Positions 6,695-21,196 of a stretch of DNA of 22,190 nucleotides are shown piece by piece. Position 1 is the first letter of the stretch; each line of letters opens with the position of its first letter. The notes under the pieces are model-generated. The model searched no databases and was not told where the DNA came from. It worked only from the letters and a program-made list of their open reading frames with translations. This DNA is from a virus, in IMG/VR virus record IMGVR_UViG_3300049003_000003, positions 1 to 22,190 of that record, one strand, 5' to 3'. Made by a program: the position numbers and the translations under genes.

Positions 6695-7252
6695 TCAGAG
6701 AGGCAGGTGCCCCGTCAGGTCCGCGAGTTGGACCGGCGAGCCACGCAGCGGCTTGTTGGTCACCGTGATGTACCGGCCAGAGCCGTAGACCTCGACGCGC
6801 AACCCCCGGAAGGTCAACTTCCGGCCCGTCGGGACGTAGCCATGACCCCAGATGTGAATGCCAGTCCCAGACGGCGACCATTCGACGTAGGTCGCGGGCA
6901 ACTCCGCAAGCCACGCCTTGGCCGCGGGATCGAGGACGCCACCTTCGGCGCAGTGGTCGACGTCGATGCAGACCAGCCCATCACCGTTCAGAACAAAGCC
7001 CTTGCGCGGCAGGTCTCGGACCGCAGAGTAGGACGCCCAGGTGGCCGGATCGGTCGAGCTGGCCGGAGCGCCATCGATCCGGATCGGCCGCTTGGTCGCG
7101 GTGTGCGACACCCACCGAGGAGCGTCCCGCAACTCCGCCGGCACCTGACGCCGAGAGAGTGCCTTGCGACAACGAGTCGAACAGGTCCGGGCGTGCGAGC
7201 GCACCAGCAGCGGAAGATCCGCCCCGCACATCTCGCACACCTGCAACGCCAT
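6695..7252 (-). CDS. PrimPol-like (AEP) domain protein with N-terminal zinc motif
   Basis: This 185-residue protein resembles the bifunctional primase/polymerase N-terminal domain of the archaeo-eukaryotic primase superfamily. A Cys pair set, CEMC and CSTRC (C6, C9, C24, C28), forms a likely zinc ribbon. Metal-binding acids appear in CIDVDHC (D97, D99), the SGxGxH-type motif in SPSGTGIHIW (H133), and the third acidic strand in VEVYGSGRYITVT (E154). No helicase domain is attached. It could make primers for the phage helicase, yet it lies in the packaging operon. ATG at 7252 has no SD, but TAGCCT ends 6 nt upstream, suggesting leaderless translation. Confidence 0.8.
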   Translation of the reverse strand: MALQVCEMCGADLPLLVRSHARTCSTRCRKALSRRQVPAELRDAPRWVSHTATKRPIRIDGAPASSTDPATWASYSAVRDLPRKGFVLNGDGLVCIDVDHCAEGGVLDPAAKAWLAELPATYVEWSPSGTGIHIWGHGYVPTGRKLTFRGLRVEVYGSGRYITVTNKPLRGSPVQLADLTGHLPL

Positions 7253-14522: not shown

Positions 14523-14665
14523 GCCTTCTGCTCCTTCTGTCGGAGTGCGTCTTCGAGCAGCCGCCGCGCGGCAGCTCTTCCTTCGGGTGTGGACGACGGC
14601 CCAACCAGTGCCGGCGGGGGTGGTTCGGTGGTGGCGAGCCAGTCGGCGAAGTCGATGACGGTCAT
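14519..14665 (-). CDS. 48-residue protein after helicase
   Basis: This gene was found by reading the overlaps. It reads MTVIDFADWLATTEPPPPAL, then VGPSSTPEGRAAARRLLEDA and LRQKEQKA. It consists of a short N-terminal helix, a Pro-rich linker and a charged C-terminal helix. ATG at 14665 overlaps the helicase stop (ATGA), and its TGA overlaps the next ATG. A helicase partner is conceivable from position only. Confidence 0.68.
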   Translation of the reverse strand: MTVIDFADWLATTEPPPPALVGPSSTPEGRAAARRLLEDALRQKEQKA

Positions 14666-15903
14666 GCCGCACGTCCCGAGAACGTGGGCGGCTGGAATGC
14701 GAACCGGGCATCAGCGATCAGTTCCGTGGGCCAGTCCCGCTCGCCACGGGCACCACGCCACGGCACGACCTCGACGCGGCGGAACTCCTGCGCGTCGTCC
14801 GTCTTCGCGCGGCGCAGACCCATGCCGAACTCGGGCCAGCGCAGCCACAGCGACGAGCCGGTCGGTCGGACCGGTCGGTCGGTCATCGCGTTGGAGCCGT
14901 GGCCGGCGTGGGCCTCAAGCAGCAGCGCGCAGTTGCCGCGGGTGCGGATGAGGTCCAGGGCGACGGTGCAGGCGCGGGCCGTGGCCTCGTCGTTGGGGTT
15001 GTCGTTCATCAGCTTGTAGAGCGGGCCGATGATCAGGATGTCCGGCTGGCACATGGTCACGCGCTTCATCAGCCACGCCACGTTCGACGGCTCAGCAAGG
15101 TTGAGACCCTCGGGGCGGCGCTCGACGAACACCCGGTCGGCGACGTCGTGACGGGCCGACTTGACCTTCGCGGAGTCGACCATCTTGCGGATCGTCTGGC
15201 GCATGATCTGCGCCGGGTTCTCCAGGTCGACGAGCAGCACGGTGCGCGGCTCGATCGGCGCGTAGGTGAACGGGTCCAGGCCGGCAGCGGCGCAGACCGC
15301 GATCTGGCGCAGCAGCATCATCTTCCCGAGCCCCTCGGCGCCGGTGAGGATCATGCGGTCTTCGCGGGCGAGCAGGCCGGGGATCACCCAATCCTCAGGC
15401 TGGTCCTCCTCGCCGAGGAAGTCGGTCAGGGTGGGCACCGTGACGTTGCCGGTGATCAGTTCGGCCTCGGTGACGTCGGCGAGCTGGGCTTGCGTCTCGG
15501 TGGTGACGGCGAGCGGCTCACAGGTGTCGTTGTTGGCCTGCTGGACGAGGCGGGTGCCGATCTCGACGAGTTCGCGGCGCGTGGCGTGACGCCGGATGTC
15601 CTCGGCGAGCAGCGGCGCTGACGCGGGGACCTCGACCTGCTGGATGAGTTCGAACAGGTAGGGGCCGCCGCCGATCTTGCCGAGCGTCCCGTCAGCGGTG
15701 GCCGCGGTGAGGACCGCCGTGGCGTGCATCGGTTCGCCGGCCAGGAAGCGGCGGTGCAGGACGGCAGCCAGGAAAGCGTGCGCCGGGTGATGGAAGTCGT
15801 CGGGGGAGATGACGGCGAACACACGCTCGGCCACGTTGGGCTGCTGCATGAGCGAGCCGAGGACCTGCTTCTCGGCGATCACGTTCTGGATGGGCGCGGT
15901 CAT
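14662..15903 (-). CDS. DnaB-N/RecA-fold replicative helicase
   Basis: This 413-residue protein is probably the phage replicative helicase. Residues about 7-110 are a DnaB N-terminal domain (EKQVLGSLMQQPNVAERVFA, then DDFHHPAHAFLAAVLHRRF). A RecA-fold domain of the RepA/AAA_25 type follows. Its Walker A reads GAEGLGKMM (188-196), with Lys194 kept but Met where Ser/Thr is expected. Walker B-like strands are TVLLVDLEN (D226) and PDILIIGPLYKL; LLLEAHAGHGS is the sensor loop. ATG at 15903 makes an ATGA overlap with the initiator gene; ATG at 15909 is an alternative. It follows the initiator, as in many phages. Confidence 0.85.
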   Translation of the reverse strand: MTAPIQNVIAEKQVLGSLMQQPNVAERVFAVISPDDFHHPAHAFLAAVLHRRFLAGEPMHATAVLTAATADGTLGKIGGGPYLFELIQQVEVPASAPLLAEDIRRHATRRELVEIGTRLVQQANNDTCEPLAVTTETQAQLADVTEAELITGNVTVPTLTDFLGEEDQPEDWVIPGLLAREDRMILTGAEGLGKMMLLRQIAVCAAAGLDPFTYAPIEPRTVLLVDLENPAQIMRQTIRKMVDSAKVKSARHDVADRVFVERRPEGLNLAEPSNVAWLMKRVTMCQPDILIIGPLYKLMNDNPNDEATARACTVALDLIRTRGNCALLLEAHAGHGSNAMTDRPVRPTGSSLWLRWPEFGMGLRRAKTDDAQEFRRVEVVPWRGARGERDWPTELIADARFAFQPPTFSGRAA

Positions 15904-16682
15904 CGCCATTCGACCTTCTGGCCCATGACGAACTCTTCAGGGTGGATCTCGCGCCACCGCTGCGCCGACTCGACCCAGAGCATCCGCTTCTTGCCCTCGT
16001 GCGGGTCAGCGGGGCGAAGCTGGTGCACGCTCGCCTCGTCTTCCCAGCGCCCGGCGTTGAGCCAGCTCGCGGGGAGCGGTCGGTACTGCGGGTCGGGGCT
16101 GAAGGCGTGGGCGGTGAGTCCGTCGAGGACTTCCTGGGGGTCGACCTTCTTGATGACCTTGTCCCACGCTTTGCGTGCTGCTGCCTTTGCCTCTCGCCGG
16201 GGGTACAGCTTCCAGAACTCATCGAAGAGGTCAGGCTCGGGAGAGATACGTAGTATCTCTTCTTTCTCTGCCTCTGTATCTGGTACGGCTTTGCTAGGCG
16301 TTTGCTTGGGCAAATCGCTAGCAACACCCCTAGCACTTGCTAGACCTTTTGCTTTGGCTTCGCCACCTCGTTTGCCAGCCTCACGACGGGCCGCCTTGAG
16401 CTGTCTTACCTGCTCAGCGCTCCGCTGGTGCTCCAGGTAGTCGTGCACCATGTAGCCGCTGTCGGCTACCTCGATCAGACCGGAAGTCGTCAGTGTCGCC
16501 CACACACGCGGCGGAGCCATTTTGCGTGCGACCGCAGACGAAATCTCTCCATCTGTCAGGTTGCGGGCGCAGTAGCAGAGCGCCTCGATGTAGGTGCGGA
16601 ACTCCTTATCCGAGAGGCCGGCCACTTTCGGGTGCTCGTCGAATCCGTCATGGAGCTTGACGTAGGTGCGGTCGTCAGCCAT
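15900..16682 (-). CDS. replication initiator / helicase-loader-like protein
   Basis: This 260-residue protein has the layout of phage initiators or DnaD/DnaT-like loaders. The N-terminal winged-helix-like domain (1-95) has LSDKEFRTYIEALCYCARNL and VWATLTTSGLIEVADSGYMV. A charged, low-complexity linker (about 100-150) follows. The C-terminal domain has LFDEFWKLYPRREAKAAARK and LPASWLNAGRWEDE, the typical loader signature. It would bind the origin and deliver the downstream helicase. The linker-coding DNA is clearly less GC-rich and contains repeats that may be the origin. ATG at 16682 has an AAGGCGG SD and forms TGATG with the GIY-YIG gene. Confidence 0.8.
   Translation of the reverse strand: MADDRTYVKLHDGFDEHPKVAGLSDKEFRTYIEALCYCARNLTDGEISSAVARKMAPPRVWATLTTSGLIEVADSGYMVHDYLEHQRSAEQVRQLKAARREAGKRGGEAKAKGLASARGVASDLPKQTPSKAVPDTEAEKEEILRISPEPDLFDEFWKLYPRREAKAAARKAWDKVIKKVDPQEVLDGLTAHAFSPDPQYRPLPASWLNAGRWEDEASVHQLRPADPHEGKKRMLWVESAQRWREIHPEEFVMGQKVEWR
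16242..16343. other. candidate replication origin inside the initiator gene
   Basis: Four copies of a CTAGCA(A/C) motif lie within 50 bp, two in each orientation (CTAG cores at 16294, 16318, 16330 and 16340). Beside them is a perfect inverted repeat AGAGATAC-gta-GTATCTCT (16242-16260), with an A/G-rich minus-strand stretch between. The segment is much less GC-rich than the window and encodes only the linker of the initiator. This is the lambda-O arrangement: iterons within the initiator gene. No experiment or search supports it yet. Confidence 0.45.
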
Positions 16683-17011
16683 CAGACGACCGCCTTCGGC
16701 CGCGCGATGTTGTAGACCGGAGACTCCGTAAGGATGGCTCGGATCTCGTGCTGGCGAGCGATCCCTTCGCCGCGGAAGCAGGTCACTCGTGCGCGGCGAA
16801 CCTCAGCCCACCAAGGCTTCCGACGGTGCTTGGCCCATCGAGACGCGATGTTGAAGGTGATCCCCACGTAGAGGAGGCGGCCTGCTCGGTCGTACAGGCG
16901 GTAGATCGACTCGTGCTGGTAGCCAGTGCTGCCGTTCTCGGTGTGGCAGCAGTACAGGGCTCGGCGGACGGTGACGCGCGGGATGATGAAGTCCTCGGTG
17001 CTGAGTTCCAT
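16682..17011 (-). CDS. GIY-YIG nuclease-like protein
   Basis: This 109-residue protein has a GIY-YIG fold. SIYRLYDRAGRLLYVGIT (35-52) supplies the two tyrosine-containing strands, with SIY and YVG in place of GIY and YIG. R58 (ASRWAKHRR), E89 (ARQHEIRAI) and N101 (VYNIARP) match the catalytic Arg, metal-binding Glu and conserved Asn. Stand-alone proteins of this size occur in phages as homing enzymes or DNA-repair nucleases; no DNA-binding extension is present. ATG at 17011 forms a TGATG overlap; the frame to 17179 overlaps the upstream gene and is not used. Confidence 0.82.
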   Translation of the reverse strand: MELSTEDFIIPRVTVRRALYCCHTENGSTGYQHESIYRLYDRAGRLLYVGITFNIASRWAKHRRKPWWAEVRRARVTCFRGEGIARQHEIRAILTESPVYNIARPKAVV

Positions 17012-17238
17012 CAGGCGGCGTCCTCGAGCAGCAACCACACGACGTGCGACTCGTCCAGCCCGCCGGCCAGCGCGATCTCGGCGTCGGTGAGGCCGTGGGT
17101 CCGGGCGCTCGAGCAGATGGAGCGCAGCGCGTTGACGGACTGCTGCCAGTGGACGGATGCGACGGCGACGGCGTTCCATGCCGCGTCGCGCACTTCATCG
17201 CGTGGGGTGTTGCCCGATTCGGGCTGGTCGTTCATCAT
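17011..17238 (-). CDS. small protein with HTH-like C terminus
   Basis: This 75-residue protein has an N-terminal helix (DEVRDAAWNAVAVASVHWQQ) and a C-terminal region LTDAEIALAGGLDESHVVWL that has the spacing of a helix-turn-helix. It may be a small DNA-binding regulator, but the HTH is short and unproven. ATG at 17238 makes an ATGA overlap; the second ATG at 17235 is an alternative. An AAAGG SD lies about 11 nt upstream. Confidence 0.65.
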   Translation of the reverse strand: MMNDQPESGNTPRDEVRDAAWNAVAVASVHWQQSVNALRSICSSARTHGLTDAEIALAGGLDESHVVWLLLEDAA

Positions 17239-17958: not shown

Positions 17959-18158
17959 GACTCGCCTCCTTTCGAGCAGGCGGTCAGGTACTCGCGGATG
18001 GCGCTGATCGGGATGCGGATAGCCGCGTCGCCGAATCGGTAGGACCGCAACTCACCGGACGCGATGGCCCGGTCGACGATGCCGCGGGAGACGCCGAGCA
18101 GACGTGCGGTCTGGATGATCGTGAGCTTCTGCTCGCGGATCGGGTCGGGGGCGGTCAT
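17955..18158 (-). CDS. excisionase/AlpA-like helix-turn-helix protein
   Basis: This 67-residue protein has a MerR/excisionase-type HTH: LTIIQTARLLGVSRGIVDRA followed by a wing IASGELRSYRFGDAAIRIPI and SAIREYL. Such proteins act as excisionases or small regulators. No integrase is in the window, so excision cannot be assumed. ATG at 18158 overlaps the methyltransferase stop (ATGA), and its TGA overlaps WhiB, which suggests the two regulators are made together. Confidence 0.82.
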   Translation of the reverse strand: MTAPDPIREQKLTIIQTARLLGVSRGIVDRAIASGELRSYRFGDAAIRIPISAIREYLTACSKGGES

Positions 18159-18880
18159 GCGGCTGCCACCGCCGATTCAGCAGCCATGATCAGTTCCCCG
18201 ATGCGCTGGGCGACTGCGGGAACCACGGCGTTTCCGATGGCCTTAAGTCGGTCCACCCGGCCGGGAGTCCCATAAGCCACTCCGTGAGGTCGGGACTCAG
18301 TGGCCCACGTCCGTCCCGATTCCTGGCAGCGTCCTTCATGTTCCAGTCCTTGCGCCGGCGTCCAAGAACCCCACCGCCGTTCGAGTCGGAGGCCCGGGGC
18401 GTGGGCCACTCCGAACAGGCGGGTACGTGTGTGTGGGGCTCCCACTGCACAAGCGCTGATGGTCCCGACGCGGACTCGATAGCCTCGTCGACCAAGGTCA
18501 GCGAGAACAGTTCCGAGTCCCTTGGTCCGCAGACCAGGCACGTTCTCGAACATGAACCATTCGGGTCGGAGTTCTCCGACAAGTCGGTCCACGTCGGGCC
18601 AGAGCCACCGCTCGTCGTCTTCTCCGAGTCGCTTGCCAGCATGTGAAGCCGGCTGACACGGGAAGCCCGCGGTGACGAGGTGGATCGGCGGGCGCTGTCG
18701 GGATCGCCACCAGTCGGCCGCTGTCTTGACGTCGTCATGCTTCGGTACCTCCGGCCAGTGCTTGGCCAGCACGCGCTGGCAGAAGGGGTCGCGTTCGACT
18801 TGTCCGACGGTGGTCATGCCAGCCCGCTCGAGGCCGAGGTCCAGGGCGCCGATACCGGAGCAGAGGGAGAGGACGTTCAC
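18155..18880 (-). CDS. DNA cytosine-C5 methyltransferase
   Basis: This 241-residue C5 methyltransferase transfers a methyl group from S-adenosylmethionine to cytosine. Motif I is LCSGIGALDLGLERAG (6-21), motif IV GFPCQP with catalytic C75, motif VI ENV (112-114), motif VIII RTRLFG (152-157) and motif X RLKAIGNAVVP. Motifs are in the usual order. The target-recognition region between VIII and X is only about 45 residues, shorter than in most such enzymes. GTG at 18880 has GAGGG 9 nt upstream and overlaps the zinc-ribbon stop (GTGA). It lacks a partner restriction gene. Confidence 0.9.
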   Translation of the reverse strand: MNVLSLCSGIGALDLGLERAGMTTVGQVERDPFCQRVLAKHWPEVPKHDDVKTAADWWRSRQRPPIHLVTAGFPCQPASHAGKRLGEDDERWLWPDVDRLVGELRPEWFMFENVPGLRTKGLGTVLADLGRRGYRVRVGTISACAVGAPHTRTRLFGVAHAPGLRLERRWGSWTPAQGLEHEGRCQESGRTWATESRPHGVAYGTPGRVDRLKAIGNAVVPAVAQRIGELIMAAESAVAAA

Positions 18881-19017
18881 GACGCCGCCCTCTTCCGCTC
18901 GTCCACACACACCGGGCACAGCGGCTGACTGGCGAGCGCCAGGTGGACGCCGCACGTCGTGCACCAGATGAGCGGGTGGTCGGACGGGCCGAGGGGGATC
19001 GGCGTGGGCGCGGTCAT
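18877..19017 (-). CDS. 46-residue zinc-ribbon protein
   Basis: HPLIWCTTCGVHLALASQPL leads to CPVCVDERKRAAS: two CxxC pairs 12 residues apart, a minimal zinc ribbon with a basic end. ATG at 19017 overlaps the VRR-NUC stop by 4 nt, and its end overlaps the methyltransferase start. Its place between nuclease and methyltransferase suggests an accessory to one of them, but that is inference. Confidence 0.72.
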   Translation of the reverse strand: MTAPTPIPLGPSDHPLIWCTTCGVHLALASQPLCPVCVDERKRAAS

Positions 19018-19947: not shown

Positions 19948-20570
19948 GACAGGCCCTCGAGCGTCGGCTCGGCGTCGGCCTGCTGCTCGTGCTTGATCCA
20001 GTCGAGGACGGCCTTCGCTTCGACAGGGGTCAGATCCGTCGGTGACTTGATCTCGCGGTCGATGACCTGAGCGACGGCGGCCAGCTTCGTCTCGCGGTCG
20101 ATGATGCCGAGGCGGGTCAGGCCGTCACCCAGTGCCTTGAGGTCCGCGTCAGAGATGCCGCCAGCCCGAGCGGGTGCCGGTGCGTCAGCGAGCGGCTGGA
20201 CGACGTAGGGCGCGCGCTTGCCCTTGGAGACGGCCAGGACGAGCGTCAGGGCCTTGGGGATGTGCGACAGATGGCTGACCCTGATCCCGCCGACGTCCAT
20301 GCCACCGAACCGCACAGCCGGGTCGCGGTAGAGCGTCATGCGGCGGCCGGCGTAGGTGGCTGCGTCCGGTCCCCACGCCGACACCAAGATGCGGCGCACC
20401 GTCTTGCTCGGCTTGAACGGTCGGCCGGGGAACTCGGCGAGGTGGATGTCGACGGGCTGCTCGGCGCTGCCCTTCTTGACCTCGGTGATGGTGAACGTGC
20501 GCGGGCCGGTCAGCAGGTCCTCGGCGTTGAGCTGGTCACTGCGCGGGATGATCGTGTCGGTCATGTCCAT
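19944..20570 (-). CDS. conserved phage protein of unknown function (recombination region)
   Basis: This 208-residue protein starts TDTIIPRSDQLNAEDLLTGP, continues with beta strands (TFTITEVKKGSAEQPVDIHL, RRILVSAWGPDAATYAGRRM, then RDPAVRFGGMDVGGIRVSHL) and ends with two helices (DADLKALGDGLTRLG, then PVEAKAVLDWIKHEQ). I recall similar proteins from actinophages next to YqaJ-type nucleases, without a known function. The beta-rich part could be a single-strand-binding or annealing fold, but no signature shows it. ATG at 20570 forms TGATG with the upstream gene and has GGAGG 9-10 nt upstream. Confidence 0.7.
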   Translation of the reverse strand: MDMTDTIIPRSDQLNAEDLLTGPRTFTITEVKKGSAEQPVDIHLAEFPGRPFKPSKTVRRILVSAWGPDAATYAGRRMTLYRDPAVRFGGMDVGGIRVSHLSHIPKALTLVLAVSKGKRAPYVVQPLADAPAPARAGGISDADLKALGDGLTRLGIIDRETKLAAVAQVIDREIKSPTDLTPVEAKAVLDWIKHEQQADAEPTLEGLS

Positions 20571-21196
20571 CAGGCGACGCCTCCAAATAGGTCGCCTTGA
20601 GACAGGCGATTAGCAATGACTTCGCAGTACCGTTCTTCGATCTCGACGCCGATAGCGCGGCGGCCTTGTGCGCGAGCGGCAAGCAACGTGGCGCCAGACC
20701 CGGCGAATGGATCGGCGATAATGCCGGGCGGGCACTTCTGGATTAGCCGCTCCATGAGGGAGACGGGCTTGGGCGTCGGGTGATCGACGCGGCTCGCCGG
20801 TATCCGGTTGGTGCGGATTACGGTCCCTTCGCGGGTGCCGGTGAAGCCGTCGCCGAGGACGTAGACCTCCTCATGGGAAGGACCCCACGGCAGACTCAGG
20901 TCACCCATGCCGGGCCACTCGCCCTTGTCCCACACGAGGAGGGCACGAGTGGCTGCAGGACGAGCTACACGCCAGGTTCCGAACACGATGGCCGGGCGGT
21001 CACCCCAAATGGCTAGGGCGTCGTCTCGTGCCGTCAGCGTGGTGTCGCCCTTGATCTGGTTCGGCTTCCAGCCCGAGACGTAGGCCATCCCGTAGGGCGG
21101 GTCCGTCACCAGCACGTCGGCGATCAGCCAGTCCTGGATCTCGCGGCAGTCGCCGTGGTGAAGGAATACGTCGTCGTCGGCGTAGTAGAGAGTCAT
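20570..21196 (-). CDS. beta-type N4/N6 DNA methyltransferase
   Basis: This 208-residue methyltransferase has catalytic DPPYGM (32-37) before the AdoMet-binding DPFAGSG (162-168), which is the beta-class order. HPTPKPVSLMERLI is the conserved pre-motif helix. LVWDKGEWPGMG and HEEVYVLGDG are typical strands. It methylates adenine N6 or cytosine N4; sequence alone does not tell which. ATG at 21196 overlaps the HNH-AP2 stop by 4 nt. It lacks a long target-recognition domain. Confidence 0.9.
   Translation of the reverse strand: MTLYYADDDVFLHHGDCREIQDWLIADVLVTDPPYGMAYVSGWKPNQIKGDTTLTARDDALAIWGDRPAIVFGTWRVARPAATRALLVWDKGEWPGMGDLSLPWGPSHEEVYVLGDGFTGTREGTVIRTNRIPASRVDHPTPKPVSLMERLIQKCPPGIIADPFAGSGATLLAARAQGRRAIGVEIEERYCEVIANRLSQGDLFGGVA

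Follow-up and report, generated by a model that had tools for sequence, protein, structure and literature searches.

A probable replication origin in the linker segment of a phage initiator gene

In the virus fragment analysed here, an IMG/VR stretch of 22,190 bp with linear ends (referred to below as the window), a gene encoding a protein with the profile matches of a replication initiator is directly followed by the gene for a DnaB-like replicative helicase, with which it overlaps by 10 bp (Table 1). The same two genes also adjoin each other in the phages Catfish, MrSmee, Asapag, Pitbull and Kithara. A GIY-YIG endonuclease-like ORF (16682-17020, minus strand) immediately precedes the initiator gene, overlapping its start by 1 bp, and the early region also carries DNA methylase genes of the C5-cytosine and N4/N6 type (18155-18964 and 20570-21196, minus strand). 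A short Prim-Pol-like protein of 185 aa, consisting of a primase/polymerase N-domain only, is encoded at 6695-7252 on the minus strand, distant from the helicase gene. No Rfam family was matched in the window.

Table 1. Positions of features at the locus (nucleotides of the window or, where stated, residues of the initiator)
Feature	Position	Strand	Remarks
Initiator gene	15900-16682	minus	260 aa; PHROG 3926/2447/270/9327 'replication initiation / primosomal protein', E 1e-23 to 1e-19
DnaB-like replicative helicase gene	14662-15909	minus	Pfam AAA_25 1.5e-27, DnaB N 9.5e-14; PHROG 19 DnaB-like helicase
Iteron 1, TTGCTAGACCTTTTGC	16337-16352	plus	exact; core CTAGCAA 16337-16343, minus
Iteron 2, GTGCTAGGGGTGTTGC	16321-16336	minus	one mismatch; core CTAGCAC 16330-16336, plus
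Iteron 3, TTGCTAGCGATTTGC	16310-16324	minus	exact; core CTAGCAA 16318-16324, plus
Iteron 4, TTGCTAGGCGTTTGC	16291-16305	plus	exact; core CTAGCAA 16291-16297, minus
Degenerate tandem element, CCAGATACAGAGGCAGAGAAAGAAGAGA (coding strand)	16256-16283	minus	exact CAGANNCAGANNCAGA at 16267-16282
Hairpin, AGAGATAC-TAC-GTATCTCT	16242-16260		perfect 8-bp arms, 16242-16249 and 16253-16260; 3-nt loop
Stability minimum of the window at 100-bp scale; likely site of unwinding	16203-16302		nearest-neighbour stability scan
Winged-helix N-domain	residues 1-85		AF2, confident; wHTH fold matches
Long helix	residues 89-116		AF2
Disordered linker	residues 117-150		AF2, low confidence
Helical C-domain	residues 151-220		AF2

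The AF2 model of the initiator (pLDDT 82.9) divides the protein into the regions listed in Table 1, and the profiles of PHROGs 3926, 2447 and 270 cover both its N- and C-domain, with E values of 1.9e-23 (residues 4-116), 2.5e-20 (6-129) and 6.7e-20 (113-221), respectively. In all, 12 PHROGs are matched, among which the O-like PHROG 678 is absent, and a weak DnaD-like match is also present (phrog_1701, E 0.0035). Pfam yielded no family, a PDB sequence search gave no match, and Foldseek returned nothing at E <= 0.001. Structural matches obtained with VIA-align reached at most Z 7.2 and involved generic winged helices; among the many wHTH proteins that align with the N-domain are 4pt7, 4pta and 5kbj (Z 5.8-6.2), whose titles read 'Structure of initiator', 'Structure of MDR initiator' and 'Structure of Rep-DNA complex', and which we take to be RepA_N initiators. 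Alignments with Z values of about 6, below the value of 8 from which the tool is trusted, may perhaps reflect just the common wHTH arrangement.

An initial annotation of the sequence had described four CTAGCA(A/C) motifs, two per orientation, within the initiator gene, and all four are indeed found inside 53 bp. The window holds five occurrences of CTAGCAM in total, four of which belong to this linker cluster (16291-16343). The accompanying observations on composition were also borne out, since CTAG is scarce in the window (17 occurrences, with 27.5 expected) and A/T content is raised locally, GC being 49% at 16242-16343 and 66.8% window-wide. The motifs are the cores of four longer iterons of 15-16 bp, KTGCTAG-N3/4-TTTGC, of which three are exact and one carries a single mismatch. 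The claim that this DNA encodes only the linker was nearly right: the disordered residues are 117-150, while the iterons code for residues 109-131, approximately.

Shuffling of synonymous codons indicates that the four-site cluster is not a product of codon constraint. None of 20,000 gene-wide shuffles produced four CTAGCAM within 60 nt, and 2 of 20,000 did so when the linker's own codons were employed; any 6-mer appeared four times in 12 of 4000 gene-wide shuffles. By counts of exact repeats the linker of the window does not stand out, being unexceptional for 8-mers (p = 0.49) and ranking 82nd of 1436 for 7-mers. Because such blunt counts work for most relatives but not for the window, words derived from the relatives were used as a test, and with these the linker scores 12, while the rest of the 22 kb scores at most 3 and shuffled versions at most 6 (0 of 4000 reach 12).

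Between the CTAGCA sites and the inverted repeat lies a CAGANN tandem that the initial annotation had missed (minus strand, 16267-16282), with the sequence CAGATACAGAGGCAGA. The exact element CAGANNCAGANNCAGA has a single match in the whole window, with 0.00 expected; the strict autocorrelation score of the tandem is low (6.5, rank 43 of 120), and its place and strand agree with those of the tandem in 55 of 68 related loci. Regarding the inverted repeat, which had been placed next to the CTAGCA motifs, the repeat itself is present, but it does not directly adjoin them, the nearest site being approximately 30 bp away. The possibility that this hairpin is a terminator was rejected, as it is not among the results of the consensus scan, whose lone terminator-like match overlaps two iterons, at a frequency that is about that of chance. 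Of the two calculations that the annotation had suggested, local melting agrees with its reading, in that the stability minima of the window at 100, 150 and 200 bp are all located here, with the tandem tract forming part of the easiest-melting stretch. The other, GC skew, gives no support: neither GC nor AT skew has an extremum near 16.3 kb. Skew is uninformative in this fragment because the early genes share one direction and skew tracks the coding strand.

Comparison with relatives covered viral sequences, namely 20 stretches from named phages and 80 IMG/VR loci encoding the N-domain (numbered loci below); counts refer to a set of 68 loci, the window included, with N-domain identity under 80%. 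The linker DNA is the top repeat cluster of its own locus in 31 of the 68 and within the top 5% in 56, and codon shuffling in 21 relatives gave p 0.003, the floor of 300 shuffles, in 14 and p <= 0.01 in three more. It had been proposed that a true origin would keep its repeats above the level of protein conservation, and this is what the relatives display: the linker protein and the exact word are lost, and clustered iterons are present at the same place. Iterons of the window's CTAGCA type recur in L033, L034, L038, L081, L088, L110 and Kithara, while elsewhere the iterons are of the TCGCA, TAACG, GTGAC and other types. On the N-domain tree, itself poorly resolved, loci of one iteron class tend to cluster: 36 changes are required in place of the 47.3 obtained with shuffled labels, and none of 200 shuffles gave so few. 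Such clustering would be expected of iterons that are read by the N-domain; the association is real but loose. In one subgroup with TCGCA/CGATCG iterons (L035, L043, L051, L058, L059), a GNHRRWH...CxxC motif is added after the winged helix, and is perhaps a zinc-binding extension.

In most relatives, the coding strand carries a tandem element just 3' of the iterons that is T-poor, is most commonly CAGANA, and advances in 6- or 7-bp steps, as in CAGAGACAGAGACAG, CAGATACAGATACAG, CAGAATACAGAATACAG (period 7) and CCCGACCCGACCC (period 5). A tandem score of at least 9 is reached in 55 of the 68 loci, with a mean T content of 6%, and in 52 of 68 the highest-scoring tandem of the locus is the one in the linker region, where 3.2 would be expected. 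Periods of 6 (30 loci), 7 (14), 5 (6) and 11 (5) were recorded; some period-11 arrays are the iterons themselves (L039, L080, L109). In 11 of 54 loci, the window included, the tandem is followed by a hairpin whose arms measure 8 bp or more, versus 0.95% of background windows (p = 4e-12). Loops of these hairpins are often TAAA or TAAC (L030, L031, L110, L013, L089), an example being GTTAGACTC-TAAA-GAGTCTAAC.

A scan of viral contigs located CAGAGACAGAGACAGAGACAG in at least 120 stretches and the period-7 pattern in 54. Among the matches listed, an ORF of at least 150 aa spans the motif in 122 of 131 non-redundant loci, with the motif near residue 125; 56% of the loci, also among the matches listed, have a 6-mer present at least three times in the 100 nt before the motif, as compared to 11% of random segments, and in 27 of the 38 listed loci with at least four copies the last copy ends 11 nt or less from the first CAGA. 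Many of the loci encode other types of initiator, with L114 matching PHROG 26426 and the O-like PHROG 678, and L156 a primosomal family; the tandem is therefore common to initiators with different N-domains. It is not exclusive to them, since some loci (L142, L256) have neither iterons nor an evident initiator. A second initiator family, recognizable by KNWxxFQHxKDRxPPWIKL (L114, L126, L130, L134, L139 and similar loci), has GCTAGCA or GATATCA iterons directly before CCAGAGACAGAGACAG, and many different C-terminal domains after it.

The coding nature of this DNA evokes the question of whether the repeats could be a by-product of the protein, an acidic, E/T-rich disordered linker being encoded with simple codon repetition. 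The linker is indeed disordered, and tandems of period 6 read mostly in the E-T frame, 110 of the 122 tandems recognized by DNA pattern, among the matches listed, starting in a single reading frame, which indicates that the protein sequence is constrained too. The iterons, however, lie in different frames, and the period-7 loci carry ACAGA in all three, periods 5 and 7 not being multiples of three. Codon usage, compared in 16 genes with GC above 55%, is also at odds with a protein-level explanation: threonine in the E/D-T repeats is encoded by ACA in 47 of 48 cases, as opposed to 34 of 253 in the remainder of these genes (p = 1e-31), while glutamate in the repeats is GAG in 40 of 40. Among viral loci, the initiator N-domain is found upstream of the synonymous GAGACC version in 2 of 77, of GAGACA in 30 of 112, and of the period-7 version in 40 of 47. 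In addition, 12 short initiators end soon after the N-domain (TripleJ, which is L020, and L039, L040, L064, L065, L066, L070, L080, L091, L092, L100, L109), and at these loci the iterons continue in non-coding DNA past the stop codon, mostly accompanied by the tandem; L060 resembles them but is a weaker case. Repeats past stop codons, periods of 5 and 7, near-exclusive ACA and the rarity of the N-domain beside GAGACC show that selection acts on the DNA in this initiator family. The by-product explanation is already disfavoured for the family, and we give it almost no weight.

Two further explanations merit consideration. The iterons could be operator or partition sites, bound by the winged-helix protein itself or by a ParB-like factor and serving expression or plasmid-prophage segregation, with the origin situated elsewhere. 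Proteins of the wHTH type are often autoregulators, and the window is a fragment. The mycobacteriophages Miko and Rachaly, moreover, have a parS of five direct repeats just downstream of repA (PMC7157519). Neither operators nor parS sites, however, would predict a strand-asymmetric tandem on the 3' side of the repeats, as conserved in 55 of 68 loci, or the coincidence of this site with the lowest stability of the window, and a simple consensus scan of 15800-17100 revealed no sigma-70-like promoter; we consider this explanation unlikely. Chance clustering combined with replication slippage, which would leave neutral microsatellites in an unconstrained linker, gains some plausibility from the tolerance of disordered linkers for repeats and from the failure of blunt word counts to mark the window. 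It is nonetheless highly improbable, given that gene-wide codon shuffles never reproduced the four CTAGCAM, that dozens of divergent loci show iterons, tandem and, in some cases, hairpin in the same order and position, and that the tandem unit is common to different initiator families.

The reading that we favour, with a probability of roughly 0.87, is that the linker segment of the initiator gene is the replication origin of the phage, in a lambda-O-like arrangement. Iterons, tandem, hairpin, low stability, DNA conservation and a position between the initiator domains, by the helicase gene, are computed properties of the locus; from these we infer an active origin at the initiator linker. The origin reading of the initial annotation is supported by the conservation of the repeats in relatives and past stop codons, with which local melting agrees. 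Features of the lambda-O-like architecture present here are repeats inside the initiator coding sequence, an adjacent easily melted tract, and a neighbouring helicase gene. Since the window comprises a linear-ended fragment of 22 kb, a further origin could exist elsewhere in the genome.

By analogy with lambda O, TrfA of RK2 and DnaD of B. subtilis, initiation would involve iteron binding, opening and helicase loading. The winged-helix N-domain would bind the four TTGCTAG-N3/4-TTTGC iterons, and this binding could strain and open the adjacent, T-poor CAGANA tandem tract. One exposed strand might be captured at the tandem by the C-domain of the initiator or by a partner, after which the DnaB-like helicase, product of the adjoining gene, would be loaded. 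The small hairpin may delimit the opened DNA or aid single-strand assembly.

The location of an origin inside an initiator gene is of a known kind, with lambda and pSK41 as examples; the oriV of RK2 does not lie within the trfA gene. The lambda origin, in gene O, resembles the window in having centrally placed iterons within the initiator gene, an easily melted flank and a helicase-related neighbour gene, and the tract beside its iterons is crucial for unwinding (PMC7466680). Lambda O binds its own iterons, whereas iteron binding by the initiator of the window is predicted, and no sequence link between the two proteins was found (PHROG 3926/2447/270 in the window, and not 678). They also differ in the flank, which is a CAGANA tandem in the window and plain AT-rich DNA in lambda, and in the next gene, which encodes a DnaB-like helicase rather than a P-type loader. 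In pSK41, a RepA_N-type plasmid, the origin is central within rep (PMC5703833); although one is a plasmid and the other a phage, the candidate origin of the window likewise lies inside the initiator gene.

A direct precedent for the role proposed for the tandem element is found in RK2 oriV, where iterons lie beside an unwinding element of tandem repeats: four 13-mers adjoin the iterons, and TrfA binds one strand alone in a sequence-specific manner (PMC4081077). The RK2 13-mers are AT-rich, while the element of the window's family consists of 5-7 bp repeats that are T-poor on the coding strand. In the oriC of B. subtilis, short repeated single-strand motifs by the initiator boxes direct the strand choice of the helicase (PMC10201434); these motifs, the DnaA-trios and the DnaD recognition element, differ in serving another initiator at a chromosomal origin and in having pairs of TnnT as their motif. 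RepA prophages of mycobacteria, like the window, encode an actinophage initiator with an N-terminal HTH, and a lambda-like position of their origin, within repA or immediately before it, has been suggested, but the origin was not located (PMC7157519). The regions examined by those authors contained no repeated motifs, whereas in the window family repeats are present and conserved.

The present analysis assigns a likely origin to a poorly studied group of the actinophage type, and a sequence rule, namely an iteron array followed by a CAGANA tandem and sometimes a hairpin, could serve to locate origins in many phages and prophages via the initiator gene. It is tempting to regard the CAGANA tract, together with its variants of period 5 and 7, as an origin element that is widespread in phages, a code in single-stranded DNA that abuts the iterons, is read by the initiator or by the helicase-loading machinery, and serves several unrelated N-domains and many C-domains, as a counterpart of the DnaA-trios and the RK2 13-mers; this proposal is tentative, and we would put its chances at somewhat below even. 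The element renders testable both the identity of the reader of the opened strand at phage origins and the way in which the helicase reaches the right strand. It appears, on weak evidence, to be new, a search of the open-access literature having revealed no description of it.

The ETETET or RPDPTRPDPT linkers of phage initiators could be explained as the footprint of a DNA function. Tandems with other units, such as (CCATC)n, (GACCC)n, (CTGATTC)n and (CCCAA)n, occupy the same place in L009, L013, L021, L023, L026 and L111, giving proteins such as RPDPTRPDPT. In the Arthrobacter phages Kepler, Galaxy, Jamun and Kuleana (L016, L017, L024, L027), whose N-domain is different, the linker carries repeats of the GGGGTG(A/C)AC type and then (AACCGTCCTTG)n, and the initiator gene is followed by a DNA methylase gene instead of a helicase gene.
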